From: a virus
Reading direction: 5' to 3' (one strand)
Length of the DNA: 25,660 nucleotides
Virus record (IMG/VR): IMGVR_UViG_3300020202_000205
Location: 1-25,660 of that record
The first letter of the stretch is position 1; every line of letters starts with the position of its first letter. A program made the translations under genes and the position numbers. Below, piece after piece: positions 4,708 through 18,487 of this stretch. The notes beneath the pieces are model-generated. The model saw nothing but the letters and a program-made list of their open reading frames with translations, ran no database searches and had not been told where the DNA came from.

Positions 4708-5312
4708 AAGGTTTCCTTTCGTGATTGCAACCACGCCTCGTAGAGGGCGCGGTCCTGGGATTTGTCGGACTTGCGATAGGTGCCGTCGAAAAGCGCGCGG
4801 CGGTTCGAGAAGTGATGATGTTCGAGGCGAATCTCGGGCGCGTAGCGATAGACGCCATTGGCCTTGGCGATTTGCTGCCAAACCGTGTCGATGTAGATGC
4901 GGTGTAGACCAGGCAGGCAGAGCCAGCCCTGTTCCCTAACAAGGCTGCCGGCCAGGACGAAGTGGGGCGATCCCCCCGTTGATTCCCCGCCCGAGGGAAC
5001 CGCCATACCGTCCTGACCGGCAATCTCTATGAGCTTTCGGTCCCAGCCTTCGGTTTCCGGGACAACGTCGTCCGCGATGAACCCGTACCAATCAAGGTTG
5101 GGGTGATAGGCGTAGAATTCGTTGTAGAGTTCGCCAAGGGGGCGCCGCGGCCCGACCGTGAGTTTCCAGCCTTGCGGTAGAGCCAGCGCCCGATACGCTT
5201 CAGCGAGCGGGTCGCAGTCATCGACCCGAAGGCTTCCCGGTGTGGTCGCCCCCCACGCCTTGAACAACCGCTCCGCGTTATGCGGCCGGCTTCGCGAGGG
5301 CAGCAGCCACAA
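4698..5312 (-). CDS. GT-A fold glycosyltransferase, family 2-like
   Basis: The product has 204 residues. The N-terminus WLLPSRSRPHNAERLFKAW matches the 'lPSRgRP' opening of phage and bacterial GT2-like proteins. GFIADDVVPETEGWDRKL (about 78-95) carries the Asp-Asp motif expected to bind the metal and nucleotide sugar. A LEHHHFSNRR segment (about 164-173) is like the C-terminal His of these folds. It would transfer a sugar to an unknown acceptor in the cytoplasm. The start is TTG at 5312, the first possible start after an in-frame TGA 18 bases upstream, and it overlaps the preceding gene by 35 bases. It is the last gene of the glycan cassette; donor and acceptor cannot be read from the sequence. 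Confidence 0.72.
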   Translation of the reverse strand: MWLLPSRSRPHNAERLFKAWGATTPGSLRVDDCDPLAEAYRALALPQGWKLTVGPRRPLGELYNEFYAYHPNLDWYGFIADDVVPETEGWDRKLIEIAGQDGMAVPSGGESTGGSPHFVLAGSLVREQGWLCLPGLHRIYIDTVWQQIAKANGVYRYAPEIRLEHHHFSNRRALFDGTYRKSDKSQDRALYEAWLQSRKETLWP

Positions 5313-6198
5313 CGGTTTGTCTTGCCTTCAGCGTCTTGGCGACGATCTCGCCGTAGATTTTCGCGGGGGTGTAATGCTCGCGCACGTAGGCAGCCAGACG
5401 ATTGGCGGTGGCCCGAATAACATCAGCCGGCGCGTTCTTGATCAGGCTGGCGGCATCCTTGGCGTCGTCGAACGTCAGATAACAGTCCTTCGGAAACCAC
5501 TCCCCGATGGGAGAGTCCCGGTGCTCCAGCAGACACGCACCCGCCCACCCTGCCTCAAGGACACGCCCTTTGATGTGGTGGGCTTGCTGCGAACCAGTCC
5601 ACGACAGGTTCAGCACCATGGCGCACCGCTTCAGGAACCGGACGTGTTCCTCGTAGCCGTCTGCATTTTCTCTGCGCCTCACCGTCAGGCCGCCGAACCA
5701 CTCCAGCGCGTTGACGATCTCCGATCTTGCGTTCCACCGACCAACCGAGCCGGAAAAGCCGCAACGGATGTCACGTGCCGGCCAGTCGCCGTTCTCGAAA
5801 TAGCGAGTATCGACCGGGGTCAGCGTGGCGTGATCGACCTCGGGAATTTTCGCCCCATCGATCGATACCTGAAGATCGAAGCACCCCCTGGTCCGCATCC
5901 CTGCCAACACTGGGTGCCAGGGCCTGTCCTTGGCGTCGGAGCACAGGTTCACACTCGGGGCCAGCTTTCGCAGAGCAACGAACGTTTCCGGCCTGGGATT
6001 GCCTGGGGCGTTGCATGCCCCGATGTAGAAGATGATGTCCGGGCGGACCCTCTCGGCCGCCTCAGTTAAGAGATGGTCATTCCGGATGCCCCGATGATCG
6101 AACGTGACACGCTCGTATGGCGTGTCAGTGAAGTCCCCCCACGCCGAGACGTGGCCGGCCACTTCATTTGTCAGCGTCGTGCAAAATAGCGCCTTCAT
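5278..6198 (-). CDS. GT-B glycosyltransferase, CgeB/group 1-like
   Basis: The product has 306 residues. The N-terminal half starts MKALFCTTLTNEVAGHV with RPDIIFYIGACN (about 52-63), like the Rossmann-type acceptor domain of CgeB-like proteins. The C-terminal half has FLKRCAMVLNLSW, then IKGRVLEAGWAGACLLEHRDSPIGEWF and YLTFDDAKDAASLI, the Glu-containing donor-binding pattern of Glyco_trans_1_2 proteins, closing with an REHYTPAKIYGEIV helix. Function: sugar transfer from an NDP-sugar in the cytoplasm. It overlaps the upstream small gene by four bases (ATGA) and the downstream GT2-like gene by 35 bases, so the cassette genes are probably translated together. The fold call is fairly sure and the substrate unknown. 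Confidence 0.75.
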   Translation of the reverse strand: MKALFCTTLTNEVAGHVSAWGDFTDTPYERVTFDHRGIRNDHLLTEAAERVRPDIIFYIGACNAPGNPRPETFVALRKLAPSVNLCSDAKDRPWHPVLAGMRTRGCFDLQVSIDGAKIPEVDHATLTPVDTRYFENGDWPARDIRCGFSGSVGRWNARSEIVNALEWFGGLTVRRRENADGYEEHVRFLKRCAMVLNLSWTGSQQAHHIKGRVLEAGWAGACLLEHRDSPIGEWFPKDCYLTFDDAKDAASLIKNAPADVIRATANRLAAYVREHYTPAKIYGEIVAKTLKARQTVVAAALAKPAA

Positions 6199-6491
6199 GC
6201 GGTGGCCGCGAAGTCTCGGGCGTAACCGGCGGTGTCGTGCTTGTCGAGTTCCAGTGTGACGGCGGCGTAGGCTTCTTGAAGGCAGGAGCCTTCCCCCTGA
6301 ATCCAGGAAAAGCCGGGCTCTCGCATCAGAGAGATTTGGAACTTGGGCCGACGCATGTACGCGGGGATGAGCGGAACAATGGTGATGTGCGGCGCCATGT
6401 AGCGCGTCAGGCCAATCTGGCGGGCGCGCTCGTCGAGACGACCAAGTATTTCTGTCACCTCACCGAGAAAGGCTCTCTCCATCAAACTCAT
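6195..6491 (-). CDS. small hypothetical protein in glycan cassette
   Basis: The product has 98 residues with no recognised family. An N-terminal helix (ERAFLGEVTEILGRLDERARQ) is followed by a beta-rich part with ITIVPLIPAYMRRPKFQISL and a GSCLQEAYAAVTLELDKHD helix. The strand, then 'G.g.clqeA...' helix pattern, resembles small phage proteins of unknown role. A good ribosome binding site (GAGGGTGG) lies immediately before the ATG at 6491, and the stop overlaps the CgeB-like gene start as ATGA. The good RBS suggests strong translation initiation. There is no signal peptide or membrane segment. Confidence 0.7.
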   Translation of the reverse strand: MSLMERAFLGEVTEILGRLDERARQIGLTRYMAPHITIVPLIPAYMRRPKFQISLMREPGFSWIQGEGSCLQEAYAAVTLELDKHDTAGYARDFAATA

Positions 6492-6500
6492 TCCACCCTC

Positions 6501-7610
6501 TTAATGCTGGCTCACCGCGTCGCGGCAATGGTCAAGCAGATCGCGCACGCTTTCGCGGAACTTGAATACCGGCCGCCACCCGGTCAGGGCGATGAACTTC
6601 GAGCAATCCGGAACTTGCAGCGTCACGTCGGCCGGCCGCATCAGGTTGGGGTCGGGCTCGCTCGGGATTGGACACAGGGCAATGGATTTGAGCGCGTCGA
6701 GAAATTGCCCGACCGTGACCGTCTCTGTGCCGCCGATGTTGTAGACCTCGCCCGGGACACCGTGCTCGGCAGCAAGCCAATAGGCCCTTACGGCATCCCG
6801 GACATCGAGCACGGTGCGGACACTATCGAGATTGCCGTGCCTCAGGATCGCCCGCTTGCCCGCTTCGATCTCCGCCACCTGCATGGCAAACGAGGTGGCG
6901 AACAGATCGGCCCGTCTCGGGTTCAAGTAGGTGAACATCCGGGTCCGGACGACACGGACATTGAACGACTTGAAGTAGGCGAAGCTCAGCGCGTCTTGAG
7001 CGAGCTTGGACACCGCGTAGGGCGACACCGGATTGAGCGACGTTGATTCATCGAGCGGACCTGACCCGGGTTTGATCTGCCCGTACACCTCCGACGAGCT
7101 GCACATGACGAACAGGGGATCGAGGCCGGCAAGCCGGATTCCCTCCAGAAGATTGGCCGTGCCCATCACGTTGTTGTTCAGAACGGCTAAGGGCGTATCG
7201 AAGCAGGCTCTGACGTTGGCGTGGCTGGCCAAGTGAAAGATCACGTCGGGCCGGGACACTTTCAGCGCTCGAACAACCGAGCCCAAGTCCATCAGGTCAC
7301 ATTCGTGGGCTTGCCACGAAGGACGAGACACAGGCTTGGGCAAGGTGTGCCACCTTGCCAGGCCGTGCACCTCATGGCCTAGCGACAGGGCGTATTCCGC
7401 AAGATACGACCCGCCCGAACCAGAGGCGCCCGTGACGAGTACACAAAGATTGCGCCCCAGCACCCTAGGCACATACGAGAGCGGCATTCCGCCGAACGGG
7501 CGATCCTTGGCCCTCTCCCACATCGAGGCTTCAAGCCCGGAGTGGATCGCGTTCTCCGACGCGACGTGCGGCGGTGAAACCGACATCCGCCTTGGCTCGT
7601 CGTGGCTCAT
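6501..7610 (-). CDS. NAD(P)-dependent sugar epimerase/dehydratase, GDP-mannose 4,6-dehydratase/reductase-like
   Basis: The product has 369 residues and is an extended short-chain dehydrogenase. The cofactor motif TGASGSG is at 60-66, RPDVIFHLAS about 120-129, SSSEVYG at 171-177, and the catalytic YAVSK at 198-202. Late segments RTVLDVRDAVRAYWLA, GEVYNIGG and LMRPADVTLQVPDCSKF with TGWRP fit the GDP-mannose dehydratase / GDP-6-deoxy-lyxo-4-hexulose reductase branch. It would make a deoxy-hexose donor for the adjacent transferases. The ATG at 7610 overlaps the upstream stop (ATGA) and has AGGCGG seven bases upstream. This gives about 50 extra N-terminal residues; an internal ATG at 7487 would start closer to the Rossmann fold. 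Catalytic residues are intact, so it is probably active. Confidence 0.88.
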   Translation of the reverse strand: MSHDEPRRMSVSPPHVASENAIHSGLEASMWERAKDRPFGGMPLSYVPRVLGRNLCVLVTGASGSGGSYLAEYALSLGHEVHGLARWHTLPKPVSRPSWQAHECDLMDLGSVVRALKVSRPDVIFHLASHANVRACFDTPLAVLNNNVMGTANLLEGIRLAGLDPLFVMCSSSEVYGQIKPGSGPLDESTSLNPVSPYAVSKLAQDALSFAYFKSFNVRVVRTRMFTYLNPRRADLFATSFAMQVAEIEAGKRAILRHGNLDSVRTVLDVRDAVRAYWLAAEHGVPGEVYNIGGTETVTVGQFLDALKSIALCPIPSEPDPNLMRPADVTLQVPDCSKFIALTGWRPVFKFRESVRDLLDHCRDAVSQH

Positions 7611-12917: not shown

Positions 12918-13294
12918 GCGTTGGCGACGATCCGCAGGCGGGGCTTCTGCAACTCGCCGCCCGCCGAGATAACCTTGACGGTCTTGCCTTCAAGGTGGGC
13001 GAGAATGGCCTTCCAGTCGCCTTCGGCGCAAACCGCTTCCAGATCGGCATTCCTCGACCCGCCGCCGTGCTTCTCGTCGATCACCTGCCGCAACTCCCTG
13101 GCTTGGTCAGGCGGCAGCTTGTCCACCAGCGCCTTGAAGTCGATGGCGAACGAGCCGTCCGAGCGTTCCTTGGCGCACAGGGCGGCTTTCACGTCGCGCA
13201 GCTTGTTCTTCATCGGCTCCATCTGATCGCGGAGCGTCTTCTCCCGGGCCTCTGCGCTTTGGGCGCGATCGATCCACATGCTGTCGTCGCTCAA
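12914..13294 (-). CDS. hypothetical protein, helical
   Basis: The product has 126 residues. Charged helices with coiled-coil character cover about residues 8-45 (SAEAREKTLRDQMEPMKNKL), followed by FKALVDKLPPDQARELRQVID and a C-terminal beta part, EGKTVKVISAGGELQKPRLR. No family recognised. The start is TTG at 13294, overlapping the portal stop as TTGA; an ATG at 13279 is an alternative that would remove five residues. Its place between portal and scaffold is the usual site of small head-assembly proteins, which is the only hint of function. Confidence 0.65.
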   Translation of the reverse strand: MSDDSMWIDRAQSAEAREKTLRDQMEPMKNKLRDVKAALCAKERSDGSFAIDFKALVDKLPPDQARELRQVIDEKHGGGSRNADLEAVCAEGDWKAILAHLEGKTVKVISAGGELQKPRLRIVANA

Positions 13295-14949
13295 GCCGCC
13301 TTCTCCTGTGGCTGTAGGTTCTTCACCGCCTGGCTGCCCTTGTTCGCCGCGTCGGCCGTCATAACGGCCATCTGAGCTTCAGCCGCTTCCTGCTGGGCCT
13401 GCTGGCGCTCCCGACGAATGGCCGCGATCTTCTCGGGCGAGCGCACAACGACACGCGGGATGTTGTTCGCCTCGGCCTGGAACTGGCCAAGGGCATCGGT
13501 ATCAACGATGTCGAGGTGCGACGGGTCGTTGGTGAGCTTCACCATCTCGGCGCGCTCGCGGTAGAACGCAGCGGCAGCAGCCGCTTCGATCATCCGGCGC
13601 AGCTTCTTGATCGGGCTTGAATAGCGGAACTTGATCTGCCGGCCCTGCAGAACTTCGGGAATCGGATTGAACTGGAACGCCCGCAGCATGACCATGAACG
13701 AACGCTCGACGAGCGGGGCTTTGTAATCCGTATCCAGCCGGCCGAACACCGGGCCGATCTCGCGCATAATCTCTTCTCGCCGAGCCCGGATTTCCTCCGC
13801 CGTCATCTGCGGGCCATCAACGGGGAGGTTCAGCACGTTGCGCAGGAACGCCGCCCACACCTGTTCGCGCTTCTTGTCCTGCATCTCCAGGACGATGGGC
13901 ATCTTTGCGCCCGTCTCCAGCGGGGCAATCGGGATTTGGCCAATTTCCTTGGCCAGTTGAATGTCGTAGTAGCTGATCCCGCCCGGGAACGTGTTGGCGG
14001 CGTCGAACGAGCCATCGCTGGGGGCGAGCAAGGGAGGATCGGCGGCGCGCTGACCCGCAACCAACAGCGTCTCATCCATCGCCTGCAGCGTGTTCGCGTC
14101 GGGGAGCGCAATCATCCCGGGGCCGCGCCCCGTCGTTTCGCCCGAGCTGGTATCCCAGCGCGGGCAGGCGAAGGGGTATTCGGCGAACCCGCCCTCGTGG
14201 GCTATGTGCGACTGCTCAATCTCAATCCACAGATCGGCATAGGGCAGATTCTTTGCCAGCAATGCCCCCTGCGGCGCTTCCTTGCGCTGCACGACGCAAT
14301 GGAGGAAGTCGAAGCACTCGTCCCATTTGGGATCTTGGGCGGTGCACTTCTCCTGCAGCTTGGGGCTCAGCTTTTCCTTGGTGAAGCGATCGACGGCCTG
14401 CCGGAGCGTGTACTTGCGCATCCGGAACATGCCGTTGGGGTTGCCCTCGTCGTCGTAGAGCGGGACGGCATCCTTGGGATGGATAGTCTGGAACAGCAGG
14501 TTGGTGCGGATGGCATTCTCGCCGCTGAAGATGTGCGCGCCGCCAAAGGTCACGAGGTCGAGATTTGCCTCTCCTCTCGCTTGGCGGAATCTGGCCTTAG
14601 GATTGTCGAATGCCCCCTCAAGCTTGTCCTCGGCATCGGCCAGCCACGCCCTGGCCTCGTCGTCATCCGCGATATCCGCGTCCGCCGTCTCGATGAAGAA
14701 CGCCTGCTCGCCCTCCGGCCACAGCATCCCGTCCAGCGCATTGGCCAAAGACCGGGCGGCCTGCATACCCGTGCCGTCGTAAATGTCCTCGGACCTGCGA
14801 TCCCCCTCGTGGACTTGACTGATGAAGCCCAGGCGATTGGGCAGGAGAACCCGCGCAAGGTCCTCGCAATGCTGATGATAAGGCCCGAGGTCTTGAAGCC
14901 TCGCCTTCCACCGCTTGATCAACTCCTTGGCGCGGAGGTCGTCGGCCAT
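13291..14949 (-). CDS. portal (head-to-tail connector) protein, T7 gp8-like
   Basis: The product has 552 residues (T7 gp8 has 536). Recognisable segments in order: LIKRWKARLQDLGPYHQHCEDLARVLLP, DGTGMQAARSLANALDGMLWP, FGGAHIFSGE, RKYTLRQAVDRF, VQRKEAPQGALL, GRGPGMIALPDANTLQAMDE, PGGISYYD and a Gln/Ala-rich C-terminus. These are the conserved blocks of the podovirus Head-tail_con family, a dodecameric portal through which DNA is packed and ejected. ATG at 14949. The C-terminal 40 residues are coiled-coil-like. It lies upstream of scaffold and capsid, the T7 arrangement. No interruption seen. Confidence 0.93.
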   Translation of the reverse strand: MADDLRAKELIKRWKARLQDLGPYHQHCEDLARVLLPNRLGFISQVHEGDRRSEDIYDGTGMQAARSLANALDGMLWPEGEQAFFIETADADIADDDEARAWLADAEDKLEGAFDNPKARFRQARGEANLDLVTFGGAHIFSGENAIRTNLLFQTIHPKDAVPLYDDEGNPNGMFRMRKYTLRQAVDRFTKEKLSPKLQEKCTAQDPKWDECFDFLHCVVQRKEAPQGALLAKNLPYADLWIEIEQSHIAHEGGFAEYPFACPRWDTSSGETTGRGPGMIALPDANTLQAMDETLLVAGQRAADPPLLAPSDGSFDAANTFPGGISYYDIQLAKEIGQIPIAPLETGAKMPIVLEMQDKKREQVWAAFLRNVLNLPVDGPQMTAEEIRARREEIMREIGPVFGRLDTDYKAPLVERSFMVMLRAFQFNPIPEVLQGRQIKFRYSSPIKKLRRMIEAAAAAAFYRERAEMVKLTNDPSHLDIVDTDALGQFQAEANNIPRVVVRSPEKIAAIRRERQQAQQEAAEAQMAVMTADAANKGSQAVKNLQPQEKAA

Positions 14950-14959
14950 CTAAGTGTAA

Positions 14960-15184
14960 TCAGCCCAGCAGTTGAGCGGCACGGGCGGAAGGACGATCAA
15001 GCAACGCCTCGCCCAAGTCACCGCCCTGTTCGGCCTCGGCAATCATCGTGGCGGCGCGGCCCTTGCGCTTCTTCTCAGCCAAGCGCTGCTTGTCCTTCGC
15101 CACGTTGACCTCGGGGTCCTCGCGTGTCGGGACGGGTGGCGGTGGAGCGGGCGCGGGAATGCTGGGCGCTGAAAAGATGCACAT
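14960..15184 (-). CDS. small proline-rich phage protein
   Basis: The product has 74 residues. MCIFSAPSIPAPAPPPPVP, then a basic helix (KDKQRLAEKKRKGRAATMI) and an ending RAAQLLG. The layout 'MC-F-x-P, poly-Pro, basic helix, ...LLG' is shared by small proteins that stand just before portal genes in many podovirus-like genomes; their function is not known to me. I prefer the ATG at 15184 (GAGGG nine bases upstream) to the TTG at 15193 that overlaps the upstream stop, because homologues begin at MC. It ends 10 bases before the portal start. Confidence 0.7.
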   Translation of the reverse strand: MCIFSAPSIPAPAPPPPVPTREDPEVNVAKDKQRLAEKKRKGRAATMIAEAEQGGDLGEALLDRPSARAAQLLG

Positions 15185-15189
15185 GCTGC

Positions 15190-15663
15190 TCAACCCTCGA
15201 AGGTGAAGCGGAGAAAGGTTTGGCCTTGGAATTCGATGGTTCCGCTTTTTCGGTAGCCGATGGCCTCAAGCCAGCGGGAGCGGACGGAACCGTTATCAAG
15301 GTCGGATATCTCGACATGCCCCGTCGTGTTGCGGAGCATGGCCCGACCCACGTCGGAGCGGTTGAAGCGGATCAGGTCTTTGGTGATCGAGAGGCGGAAC
15401 TGCTCCAGCCGCGCCTCGCTCGCCGTGCTTACAATCCCGGTGTTGGGGACGGCAAAGATGTAGGCCGGCAACCCCTCAGCCGACACGACACCAAGCCGCG
15501 CCGCGCCCTTGAAGACCGCACGACATTCCGGCTCGCTGAGCCGAAGATGGCGCTGAGCCCATTCGATATCTTCCACCGTAAACCGGTGTGGGTGATCGAA
15601 AACCCAGTCAACCGCCGCGTCACGCTCGGCTTGCGTCCATTGCGACGCATCATGGACCGGCAC
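15190..15663 (-). CDS. second GNAT-like (gp13-like) protein
   Basis: The product has 157 residues. EGLPAYIFAVPNTGIVSTASEARLEQFR is followed by ITKDLIRFN, then NTTGHVEISDLDNGSVRSRWLEAIGYRKSGTIEFQGQTFLRFTFEG. The final 'N..s..WLe.iGyr..gt....G..F..F' block is the form seen in gp13-like GNAT-fold phage proteins. The acetyl-CoA loop is not obvious, so it may be a structural relic rather than an enzyme. The start is GTG at 15663, one base after the upstream stop, with only weak Shine-Dalgarno sequence (GGCGGCGGG some 13 bases away). It lies before the portal gene, unlike the other GNAT-like gene near the left end. Confidence 0.5.
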   Translation of the reverse strand: MPVHDASQWTQAERDAAVDWVFDHPHRFTVEDIEWAQRHLRLSEPECRAVFKGAARLGVVSAEGLPAYIFAVPNTGIVSTASEARLEQFRLSITKDLIRFNRSDVGRAMLRNTTGHVEISDLDNGSVRSRWLEAIGYRKSGTIEFQGQTFLRFTFEG

Positions 15664-15664
15664 C

Positions 15665-16204
15665 TCAATGCGCGGTCCCGCCGCCTATCGTGGCCAGTAC
15701 GGCATCGTAAGCAGCCCCCGGCCCGTGCTCCTCAATCAGCTTGTCGCATTCCTGATCGGTGAGGGAGCGCCAGCCAACACCTGATTTGTCCCAGACTTCC
15801 TTGGTGCGTCTGCGGAGGTCGGCTAGTTCTTTCGGGCCAAGATCGGCAAGGAAGCTTTTAGTCTTCACCTGAGGCTTGCGGCCGATGACCATTGCTTCGG
15901 CGACCAGGAGAACCGGGGCCTCGTAGGTTACTGGCTCCCCACCGTCCTTCGGGGCGATGTGCACCGCCATGCGGCCCAAGCTGATGCATTTCTGCTCCAG
16001 CCACTTGGGCACCTCAGGCACCCGGTCATCCCCGGGCTTCTTGATCACGAACTCGGGATCGCCAATCAGGACGTTCTCTTTGTTCGCCTTTGACGTGAGG
16101 GCGGCGCGGGCGTCCTCTTCCATGAACTGGCGCAGGTGTTCGGCTGTCTCCCCGCCGGCCAGCCAGATTGCCAGTTCGATACGGTCGCCGTAGCGGAGGG
16201 TCAT
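15665..16204 (-). CDS. hypothetical protein
   Basis: The product has 179 residues, soluble and of mixed charge. Segments include ELAIWLAGGETAEHLRQFMEED, EVPKWLEQKCISLGRMAVH and VGWRSLTDQECDKLIEEHGPGAAYDAVLATI. No family recognised. The frame is fully open with good codon use. The ATG at 16204 overlaps the upstream stop (ATGA), and the stop is one base before the next GTG, so it belongs to the packaging/portal operon. A role in head assembly is only inferred from location. Confidence 0.75.
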   Translation of the reverse strand: MTLRYGDRIELAIWLAGGETAEHLRQFMEEDARAALTSKANKENVLIGDPEFVIKKPGDDRVPEVPKWLEQKCISLGRMAVHIAPKDGGEPVTYEAPVLLVAEAMVIGRKPQVKTKSFLADLGPKELADLRRRTKEVWDKSGVGWRSLTDQECDKLIEEHGPGAAYDAVLATIGGGTAH

Positions 16205-16410
16205 CGCAGCGGCAGCATCTTTGTTGGTCTGACCGTTCGCGGATCGTGCCCCGATGCGAGAAGGAATCTGTGGAGCGACGGCGGCACGAAAGACACGAAC
16301 CCGCGCTCCATTGCGGACAGCGCGGCGGAAACCCTAACGCCGTCAGCCATGTCGCTTATCGGCGCCGGCAAAGCAGTGGTGCTGGCGAGGTCGGCACGAA
16401 GACCGGTCAT
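16201..16410 (-). CDS. small hypothetical protein
   Basis: The product has 69 residues. No recognised domain; the centre is moderately hydrophobic (SAALSAMERGFVSFVPPSLHRFLLASG) and the end basic. I chose the ATG at 16410 because it overlaps the preceding stop as ATGA; a GTG two codons upstream is the only alternative. The stop also overlaps the next ATG by four bases, and this perfect coupling on both sides is the main support for a real gene. Confidence 0.6.
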   Translation of the reverse strand: MTGLRADLASTTALPAPISDMADGVRVSAALSAMERGFVSFVPPSLHRFLLASGHDPRTVRPTKMLPLR

Positions 16411-16592
16411 CTCCACCTCAAAGGGCTGTATTTGCTGTTCGCCGCCGTGGGCCGCGGCTGCTTGCGAAAGTCCCTGTCGAATCCAACAATGCCCATGTGC
16501 ACCCGGTTGCGTTCGGCGTGATACCGGGCAAGCGACTCAGCATCCCAGCCGTTTTTGATGTCGTCGGCGGTCAGCTCGGGCGTGTCGCTCAT
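16407..16592 (-). CDS. small protein sharing a C-terminal tail with the large terminase
   Basis: The product has 61 residues from the ATG at 16592, which overlaps the stop of a 51-residue membrane ORF (ATGA). It opens MSDTPELTADDIKNGWD with a helix ESLARYHAERNRVHMGIVGFD. The last residues, ANSKYSPLRWR, nearly repeat the terminase ending ANSNYSPTRWRAGR. This shared tail suggests a common docking peptide or an ancestral duplication of the terminase end. Function unknown; a packaging accessory is a plausible guess from tail and position. Confidence 0.65.
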   Translation of the reverse strand: MSDTPELTADDIKNGWDAESLARYHAERNRVHMGIVGFDRDFRKQPRPTAANSKYSPLRWR

Positions 16593-16744
16593 TTCAAAAC
16601 AAGACCGACCCTGAAGCACACGGCCACCACCCCAAAGATGGCAGACACTAGCCACCACATGCGCCGAAAACCGGGGTCCGGAGCGGTGTTTCCGGCTATC
16701 ACCGACAGCACCGACAGCATGCCGAAGAACTGCGCCTCGCTCAT
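16589..16744 (-). CDS. 51-residue membrane miniprotein
   Basis: The frame encodes 51 residues from the ATG at 16744. There are two hydrophobic stretches, FFGMLSVLSVIAG (about 6-18) and MWWLVSAIFGVVAVCFRVGLVL (about 29-50), separated by NTAPDPGFRR. Two short helices with a polar turn resemble small holin-like or other phage inner-membrane proteins, but nothing proves lysis function. The start overlaps the large terminase stop (ATGA) and the stop overlaps the next start (ATGA). It fills what would otherwise be an unexplained 150-base gap in a tightly packed operon. Confidence 0.65.
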   Translation of the reverse strand: MSEAQFFGMLSVLSVIAGNTAPDPGFRRMWWLVSAIFGVVAVCFRVGLVLK

Positions 16745-18108
16745 CGTCCGGCCCTCCAGCGCGTCGGGCTGTAGTTGCTGTTCGCTCTTGTCGGCAATGA
16801 CTTGGCGTTCGGGTCCTTGGGCTCTCTCAGCCCGATAGCGAGATAGCGGAACCCATCGGCGGGATGAGAGGTCCAGTCGTGCTCCGGGCGCTCCGAGAAC
16901 ACCTTGCGCTCATCGTCCCAGGCCTTGCGGTACTGCCTCAGCGCCTCAATGCCCCTCGAGCATTTCTCGGCGTCGAACCAGCAGCGCGGGAGAATCAGGC
17001 GTACGGCGTTGATGCCGTCCTCAAGCCGGTCGTTTGGAAGCACCCTGCCCTTAGATATGCCGAGGCTTTTCAGCGTCTCTATGCGCGTGCGCCCCGTGCT
17101 CAGGTCTTTCACCCGGGCGTCATGGGGCAACAGCGTGTCGCCGTAGACGTAGGGCTTCTCGCCCAGCACCTTGGCGTAGTGGTCGAGGCCGACGCCCGAA
17201 GCTTCGTAATAGTCGATCAGGCGAATTTCCCTGCCCGCTTGCTGGCAGAACCAGATCGCGGTGCTGTCGCCGATGCCAAGATCCCAAGCCGTGATAACCG
17301 GAAGGTCGGGCGCCCACGGCACATTGGTAATGCGCTTCTGGGCTTCGGCCGCTTCCATCAGCTTGCCGTAGTACGCCCCGACTAGAGCGGCTTGGAAGCT
17401 GCAGTAGTACTCTTGCTGGATCAGCTCCTCGGGCATGTCCGAGGCGCGCTCATCAGCAATGATCGATGGCGGGATGATCTTCGTATCGTCCACGGTCAGT
17501 TTCTCGGCGAACCAGCCGGGGTTAGACTTCGCCATCTCGTAGAGAGTGGCGCCGTGGTTCCTGCCCCGGGGCGTGTAGATGAACAGAGCCCAGCCGCCAT
17601 TCTCCGCAAGGATGGGCCGGATGTAATCCCATGCTCTCGGATCGGCCACGCTGTATTCGCTGAACACGACGCCGGCAGGATTCGCACCGATCAGGGCATC
17701 GAAGTTATCCGAACCGACCACCTGCCACGTTGACCCGCACTTGAGGCGGATCAGCATCTCGTCGTCGCGCTTGCCGCCTCTCAGAGACTCGGGAAAAGCT
17801 TGGTCGATAACCCGCCTGCCCTGACGGTCGATCGCTTCCCACACAACCTTCCGGCCCTGCTTGGCCGTGGGGAGCATGTGCCAGTAGTTGGCTACCCGTT
17901 CGTGGGCTGCGCACGCGGTGAAGTTCAGGGCGGTTGAGTCCTTGCCCGCCCGGCGGTGCCAGACGGCCACCGCGCGCTTACCTCCACCCTCCAGATAGCG
18001 CCACAGCCTAACTTGGTGGCCGCGCGGCTCCCACTCACTCGGAAGCGGAATCTCCCGCGCCAAACTTGCGAATGACGACGGTAATGGGGCTGTCAGCGTC
18101 GCCGGCAT
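16741..18108 (-). CDS. terminase large subunit
   Basis: The product has 455 residues. It is the ATPase and nuclease that packs DNA into the head. Walker A is HRRAGKDS (51-58), the Walker B-like strand VVFSEY has Glu at 151, and the coupling motif YTPRG is at 178-182. RNase H-like nuclease residues lie in AWDLGIGDS (D276), LLPHD (326-330) and HDWTSHPADGF (410-420). The Walker B Asp is replaced by Ser (FSEYS), a variant I have seen in podovirus-type terminases. I start at the ATG at 18108; a TTG two codons earlier is the only nearby alternative. It overlaps the small terminase gene by 74 bases. The ending ANSNYSPTRWRAGR is shared with a small neighbour. Confidence 0.95.
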   Translation of the reverse strand: MPATLTAPLPSSFASLAREIPLPSEWEPRGHQVRLWRYLEGGGKRAVAVWHRRAGKDSTALNFTACAAHERVANYWHMLPTAKQGRKVVWEAIDRQGRRVIDQAFPESLRGGKRDDEMLIRLKCGSTWQVVGSDNFDALIGANPAGVVFSEYSVADPRAWDYIRPILAENGGWALFIYTPRGRNHGATLYEMAKSNPGWFAEKLTVDDTKIIPPSIIADERASDMPEELIQQEYYCSFQAALVGAYYGKLMEAAEAQKRITNVPWAPDLPVITAWDLGIGDSTAIWFCQQAGREIRLIDYYEASGVGLDHYAKVLGEKPYVYGDTLLPHDARVKDLSTGRTRIETLKSLGISKGRVLPNDRLEDGINAVRLILPRCWFDAEKCSRGIEALRQYRKAWDDERKVFSERPEHDWTSHPADGFRYLAIGLREPKDPNAKSLPTRANSNYSPTRWRAGR

Positions 18109-18487
18109 GTTCAATTCGGTCGCGCCATTCCTTGGGCTTGCGGTTCTTCAGCCAGAAGATGCAGGCGGTCGTATCGGGCGGCGTGTGTTCGGTGTAATCC
18201 ACCGTCACGGGCGCGCCCTCATACTGAAAAATCTTCGTCGCTGCGTGGCTGTAGCCCGTCGCCTTACGGAACAGGCTTTGCTCAACCATCTGGTCGGCCA
18301 CGTCCTTCCCGTGCTTTAGGGCCTGACAAAAATCAGGGTGCTCGTGCTTCCAGCGATAGATGGTCCGCACGTCCACCTTAAAGAACTCGGCTAGGTCGGC
18401 GTCGGTCGCCCCCAACTCGCAAGCCTTCTTGGCCTGATCGATAAATTCGGGTTTGAAGTCGCTAGGACGACCCTTGGGCTTCGGCAT
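18035..18487 (-). CDS. terminase small subunit
   Basis: The product has 150 residues. It opens with the basic MPKPKGRPSDFKPEF, then a helix-turn-helix (GATDADLAEFFKVDVRTIYRWKHEHPDF, about 26-53), VADQMVEQSLFRKATGYSH, and a C-terminal block PPDTTACIFWLKNRKPKEWRD (about 108-128). The last block is typical of small terminases of this class. It recognises phage DNA and loads the large subunit. ATG at 18487, without a strong ribosome binding site; two GGGAAC copies lie just upstream. The long overlap with the next gene implies coupled synthesis of the two subunits. Confidence 0.9.
   Translation of the reverse strand: MPKPKGRPSDFKPEFIDQAKKACELGATDADLAEFFKVDVRTIYRWKHEHPDFCQALKHGKDVADQMVEQSLFRKATGYSHAATKIFQYEGAPVTVDYTEHTPPDTTACIFWLKNRKPKEWRDRIEHAGDADSPITVVIRKFGAGDSASE

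Follow-up and report, generated by a model that had tools for sequence, protein, structure and literature searches.

The large terminase (TerL) encoded in the virus record analysed here (25,660 bp; this whole stretch is referred to as the window) and a 61-aa protein encoded close to it end with nearly the same peptide, and across related loci the tail of the small protein mirrors that of the local TerL in each of five BLAST-distinct TerL groups. The tail is independent of the TerL group, and it is restricted to one clade of portal proteins. The peptide remains associated with the head module as motor bodies are exchanged and is therefore best read as a head-module docking tag. From these comparisons, we consider the chances about even that the tail serves as a C-terminal docking peptide for a co-inherited head-module protein, most likely the portal, and that it is used both by TerL and by a small competitor or successor.

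The genes concerned lie on the minus strand in the order TerS (150 aa, 18035..18487; phrog_309, 1.6e-51), TerL (16741..18114), a 51-aa membrane miniprotein with a hydrophobic stretch (16589..16744), the 61-aa small protein (16407..16592; ATG at 16592, stop at 16409–16407), a 71-aa ORF (16201..16416), a 179-aa ORF (15665..16204), a 157-aa ORF, a 77-aa phrog_831 protein (14960..15193) and, directly after it, the portal (13291..14949). TerL comprises 457 aa when counted from the TTG at 18114, the likely start being the ATG at 18108. It was assigned by profile matches to the phage large terminases in PHROG (phrog_2472, 8e-50; phrog_2, 1e-28), and a Pfam search of the protein gave no match. The portal, a head-to-tail connecting protein and the proposed partner of the tail, matched PF12236 (1.2e-94; 318 bits against a cut-off of 27), and its structure model has the fold of T7-like portals (8ck0 and 6qwp). 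Stop and start codons overlap as ATGA at 16741–16744 (TerL and miniprotein), at 16589–16592 (miniprotein and small gene) and at 16407–16410 after the small gene, the last overlap involving the 71-aa ORF if this starts at 16410. The miniprotein gene is the sole gene between TerL and the small gene, as had been described initially, and is not conserved: the intervening gene differs between the two closest phages, an 87-aa ORF with a signal-like start taking its place in the relative L001 (L001:1060-1323). Elsewhere in the window, several ORFs located among structural genes (5278–7610) resemble sugar-modifying enzymes on reading, with 6501–7610 being epimerase-like.

In the window, TerL ends with PTRANSNYSPTRWRAGR and the small protein with PTAANSKYSPLRWR, the tail peptides proper being ANSNYSPTRWRAGR (16744..16785) and ANSKYSPLRWR (16410..16442). 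The near-identity of the two ends reported in the initial annotation is exact, as ANSNYSPTRWR of TerL and ANSKYSPLRWR of the small protein have 9 of 11 residues in common. When all six frames of the window were searched with a loose tail motif, both tails and one unrelated match were recovered, and the DNA pattern AACAGCAAMTACAGCCC with up to three mismatches occurred twice (0.04 matches expected). Among the 554 ORF ends of the window, the best match to the TerL end was that of the small protein (score 56; next best 32). The resemblance is no coincidence.

The small protein belongs to a family of about 60–110 aa, initially found in 46 distinct contigs, that combines a core NGWxxxxLxxY (in fuller form [RK]-N-G-W-x(4)-L-x(2)-Y) with a tail of the approximate consensus P-T-R-A-N-S-x-Y-[SNR]-P-[HL]-R-W-R. 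In 18 aligned members, the core residues N, G, W, L and Y and the tail residues Y, P and W were invariant. Its gene often directly follows that of TerL; in L115–L117, very long ORFs of unknown kind (about 920–1070 aa) lie between the small protein and the portal. A scan with the sequence from the window alone found nothing, and successive scans with alignments of small proteins retrieved 4, then 8, then 45 loci. Searches of Pfam and PHROGs gave no match at E values up to 1, and a profile search of PDB sequences gave one match (E 1.8). Within the scope of these three collections, the family appears to be undescribed. A role as TerS was rejected, given the lack of a Pfam or PHROG match and the TerS already present upstream. 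No credible relative was found in the collection of cultured phages searched, nor any member in GTDB genomes at the sensitivity used. Judged from these searches, the phages with the shared tail would form one uncultured group of bacterial viruses, for which no cultured relative was found. In the structure model of the small protein from the window, helices at residues 9–13 and 18–35 (pLDDT about 90) are followed by a loose tail, which is probably disordered (pLDDT 56–66).

The tail occurs on both proteins or on neither. An HMM built from 13 small proteins and run against 18,232 ORFs from 127 loci matched small proteins and, besides these, solely the C-termini of TerLs (E 2e-5 to 0.025); a version without the tail matched small proteins only. 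When all ORF ends of a contig (23–554 each) were compared with the TerL end, the small protein ranked first in 43 of 46 contigs. It ranked fourth in L161. In L164, the true TerL end lies on another ORF, and PTQT....RWLRR is common to TerL and the small protein (PTQTKNAMRWLRR vs. PTQTICHRRWLRR). In L160, TerL is located about 8 kb upstream and ends with GGYSPHRF, compared with TTQAFDPQNW in the small protein. The TerL reading frame of L164 (L164:217-1856) is interrupted at a repeated stretch, which could be an assembly error. In L160 and L166 (contig 3300009285_010696), the small gene adjoins the portal gene, and the approximately 8 kb separating it from TerL hold other genes.

A count of 194 distinct TerL ends of groups A–D, in which identical 22-aa ends were taken once and for which the tail pattern was written after the tails had been seen, gave 39 ends with both tail and small protein and 154 with neither; no end had the tail without the small protein, and in one case (L165) a small protein accompanies a TerL tail that is diverged but matching (GGYRPHAGGY on TerL, AGFRPHRW on the small protein). 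The motif is thus not missing from relatives in just one of the two proteins, the finding that would have spoken against the initial observation. The 154 include L204, scored as lacking both by the HMM, in which inspection revealed a small protein (L204:4053-4355) ending with ESFDPHNW; its ORF starts inside the adjoining TerL gene, whose product ends with ASYDAF. The pattern had been tightened because an earlier, looser version caught seven TerL ends of other kinds (e.g., NDYDPLGG) without a small protein. TerLs with less than 450 nt downstream or with a weak family score (below 300 bits for group B and 250 bits for group D) were excluded from the count; among these, L096, L117, L135 and L171 each have both tail and small protein. 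Group E, with its diverged tails, stands outside the table.

The TerL bodies that carry the tail are very different. With the last 18 aa removed, no BLASTp similarity was found between groups, and at E 1e-8 the bodies clustered into five groups: A (the window and L001), B (Terminase_3/6C type), C (L097), D (kin of the BPP-1 TerL) and E (L163 and L164). Cluster 4 of that clustering (L173–L175) reflected a wrongly picked ORF, the TerL of these loci belonging to group B. The tail is present in all five groups, in diverged form in E. When the tails were kept and the threshold was relaxed, groups B, C and D merged into one cluster; therefore, these are remote kin rather than unrelated in fold. Of the 80 loci whose TerLs come closest within the group of the window, 79 lack the tail, and only L001 (82% identical) has it, on TerL and on a small protein ending with VANGKYSPLRPWR (61%–62% identical), despite the different intervening gene. 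Scans with TerLs of groups B and D likewise added many TerLs without the tail.

The portal behaves differently from TerL. Identity to the portal of the window was 69% in L001 and 51% in both L090 and L097, while the TerLs of the window and these three loci belong to groups A, A, B and C, respectively; portals of cultured phages reached 33% identity at most. A tree of 42 portals placed 22 tail-less rows on one side of a branch (100/99), with all 16 tail-bearing rows and four cut ones opposite. In a tree of 68 portals, in which L204 carries the label "nosmall" despite the small protein found later, every row with a small protein fell within a clade of 41 (95/85), where TerL groups were interleaved; L204 belongs to this clade as well. 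TerL groups changed 14 times for seven labels on this tree, compared with 34.0 times after shuffling. The tail therefore tracks the portal lineage and not the TerL lineage, with two exceptions in the wider portal clade: L121, the sister row in the 42-portal tree, lacks the tail as well as the small protein, and L184 has a TerL ending with YDPAAGW and no small protein. Both lack the small protein, and a portal of this kind can therefore do without it. No other gene family was shared as widely as the portal, which occurred in 23 of 26 representative loci. Other candidate partners were rejected: the TerS candidates of the loci form no single family; the 179-aa family, common in the group, does not track the tail (absent from L113–L119, present in the tail-less L121); and the NCVGL family is absent from the window and L001.

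That the peptide persists even after replacement of the motor gene by a very different one suggests a common docking place on the virus head for both proteins; since TerL and the small protein both bear the tail, each would come to this site. We propose that the small protein, which combines a short helical core with a flexible tail, takes up the place on the portal at which the terminase docks whenever TerL is absent. It could act as a place-holder or competitor before packaging, as a successor after TerL has departed, or as a filler of portal sites left empty by a terminase ring with fewer subunits. Both the portal as partner and the order of these events are inferred. It is conceivable, if on balance somewhat doubtful, that the family represents a dedicated terminase-tail mimic, in which tiny proteins take the portal docking site via the motor's own C-terminal peptide, in a lineage where this peptide is a docking tag borne by every very different terminase swapped in. 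Such a mimic would control when the motor docks or leaves.

Portal binding by the TerL C-terminus is an already known theme. The C-terminal part of T3 gp19 and T4 gp17 is reportedly important for prohead or portal binding, as is the C-terminal region of lambda gpA. In the phages described here, the element concerned is a short peptide that recurs on TerLs of very different kinds and also on another, tiny protein. A comparable arrangement is known from PCNA-binding peptides and the inhibitor p21, where one site receives several clients, an inhibitor among them, all via the same short motif; by analogy, one motif would serve several clients here, although the process is another one and binding is deduced. 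For lambda, the excerpted text of PMC2366019 describes a gpA mutation hindering procapsid binding that is suppressed by a portal mutation, and HK97 TerL contacts the portal clip according to excerpts of PMC10359639. P22 gp2 likewise has a short extension beyond its nuclease domain, the C-terminal basic tail 483–499; a second protein with this tail is not mentioned in the excerpted part of PMC11728703. Searches of the open-licence PMC literature yielded neither an account of a TerL tail recurring on a small protein nor one of a tail kept across very different terminases. The questions touched are how the terminase motor docks on the portal, why it is released and how very different terminases can be exchanged between phages. 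A peptide that follows the portal, sits on several TerL groups and is copied by a 60-residue neighbour offers a direct and cheap experimental handle: with lab-made proteins, one can ask whether the peptide binds the portal, whether the two proteins compete and whether the tail is needed.

The partner might instead be another co-inherited head-module protein, such as a scaffold, capsid protein or adaptor, which we consider unlikely but the most serious alternative to the portal. Downstream of the portal, two families of about 322 and 304 aa, scaffold- and capsid-like by position, travel with it, each in 14 of 26 representative loci; many of the remaining loci are truncated. In addition, of 32 clade-specific portal residues (conserved in the tail-bearing clade and different outside it), none falls within the presumed clip, whose limits (304–350) were deduced from the helices of the portal model; the nearest are A303 and Q357. 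The earlier suggestion of a shared partner such as the portal is supported in part: the phylogeny fits it, in that TerL groups are exchanged, the loci have no TerS in common and more of them share the portal than any other family, but a concentration of clade-specific residues in the clip was sought and not found. On the other hand, T3 gp19 does not bind to procapsids lacking the connector, as the excerpted text of PMC2366019 states, which suggests that TerL is normally received by the portal.

It is rather improbable that the tail mediates self-association, with the small protein acting as an assembly or regulatory subunit of the terminase. The TerL and small genes of the window are close and coupled by overlaps, and the tails covary: the two tails of one locus were more alike than other pairings (30.4 for own pairs vs. 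26.0 when shuffled, sd 0.7; reached in 0 of 20,000 shuffles), and covariation persisted after control for core similarity (partial r 0.26; 9 of 5,000). Covariation, which also counts in favour of the docking-peptide reading, is modest once relatedness is allowed for. A P-to-V change in both tails of L149 was rejected as proof of coevolution, given that in L171, L206 and L227 only the small protein has V. However, the TerL bodies are too different to offer a shared surface, so that contact would have to be made by the tails only, and the small gene of L160 lies beside the portal gene and far from TerL.

Binding to a host factor, or a degradation or processing signal on two proteins needing like handling, would suit a short, C-terminal and probably disordered tail modelled at low confidence, but would not explain its confinement to one portal clade; we regard this explanation as quite improbable. 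That the tail is a basic extension that binds nucleic acid, as may hold for the basic tail of P22 gp2, is very unlikely. R, H and W are abundant in most tails, yet the diverged tails are not basic and nevertheless keep an aromatic-x-[PA] element and a final aromatic residue (FDPQNW, FDPHNW and YDAF).

As DNA, the tails of the window form a 32-nt repeat with 81% identity, and TGGAGG precedes the overlapping ATG at 16744. A DNA artefact, either a recent local duplication or W-R codons that serve as the ribosome-binding site of the overlapping next gene, can nevertheless be dismissed almost entirely, as over 45 loci the two tails use the same codon for 110 of 280 identical residues, where codon usage predicts 122.9, the peptide of L001 is encoded by other codons, and the conserved part starts well before the W-R codons, which are all that a ribosome-binding site could account for. 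In the window itself, the same codon is used for five of nine identical residues (3.5 predicted from codon usage). Because codon sharing is not in excess, selection has acted on the peptide, and the likeness is not a fresh DNA copy; recent duplication or gene conversion was thus rejected.

Comparable TerL endings were also seen beside other portals. In L099–L101, L104 and L107 (BPP-1, DC33, RapA, phiV10 and zth2-2), which have distant PF12236 portals, TerL ends with (D)YDPY or HDPY. These endings may represent a sister docking tail that belongs to a different portal lineage; in contrast to the phages described here, no small protein with the same tail was seen in BPP-1, phiV10 and their kin, and the DYDPY motif lacks N-S-x-Y-x-P-H-R-W. 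In L023, a 96-aa ORF directly after the portal (L023:6706-6996) ends with KSDYNPFGAPT and TerL (L023:3075-4559) with GEYNPFA, possibly a second, independent shared tail.
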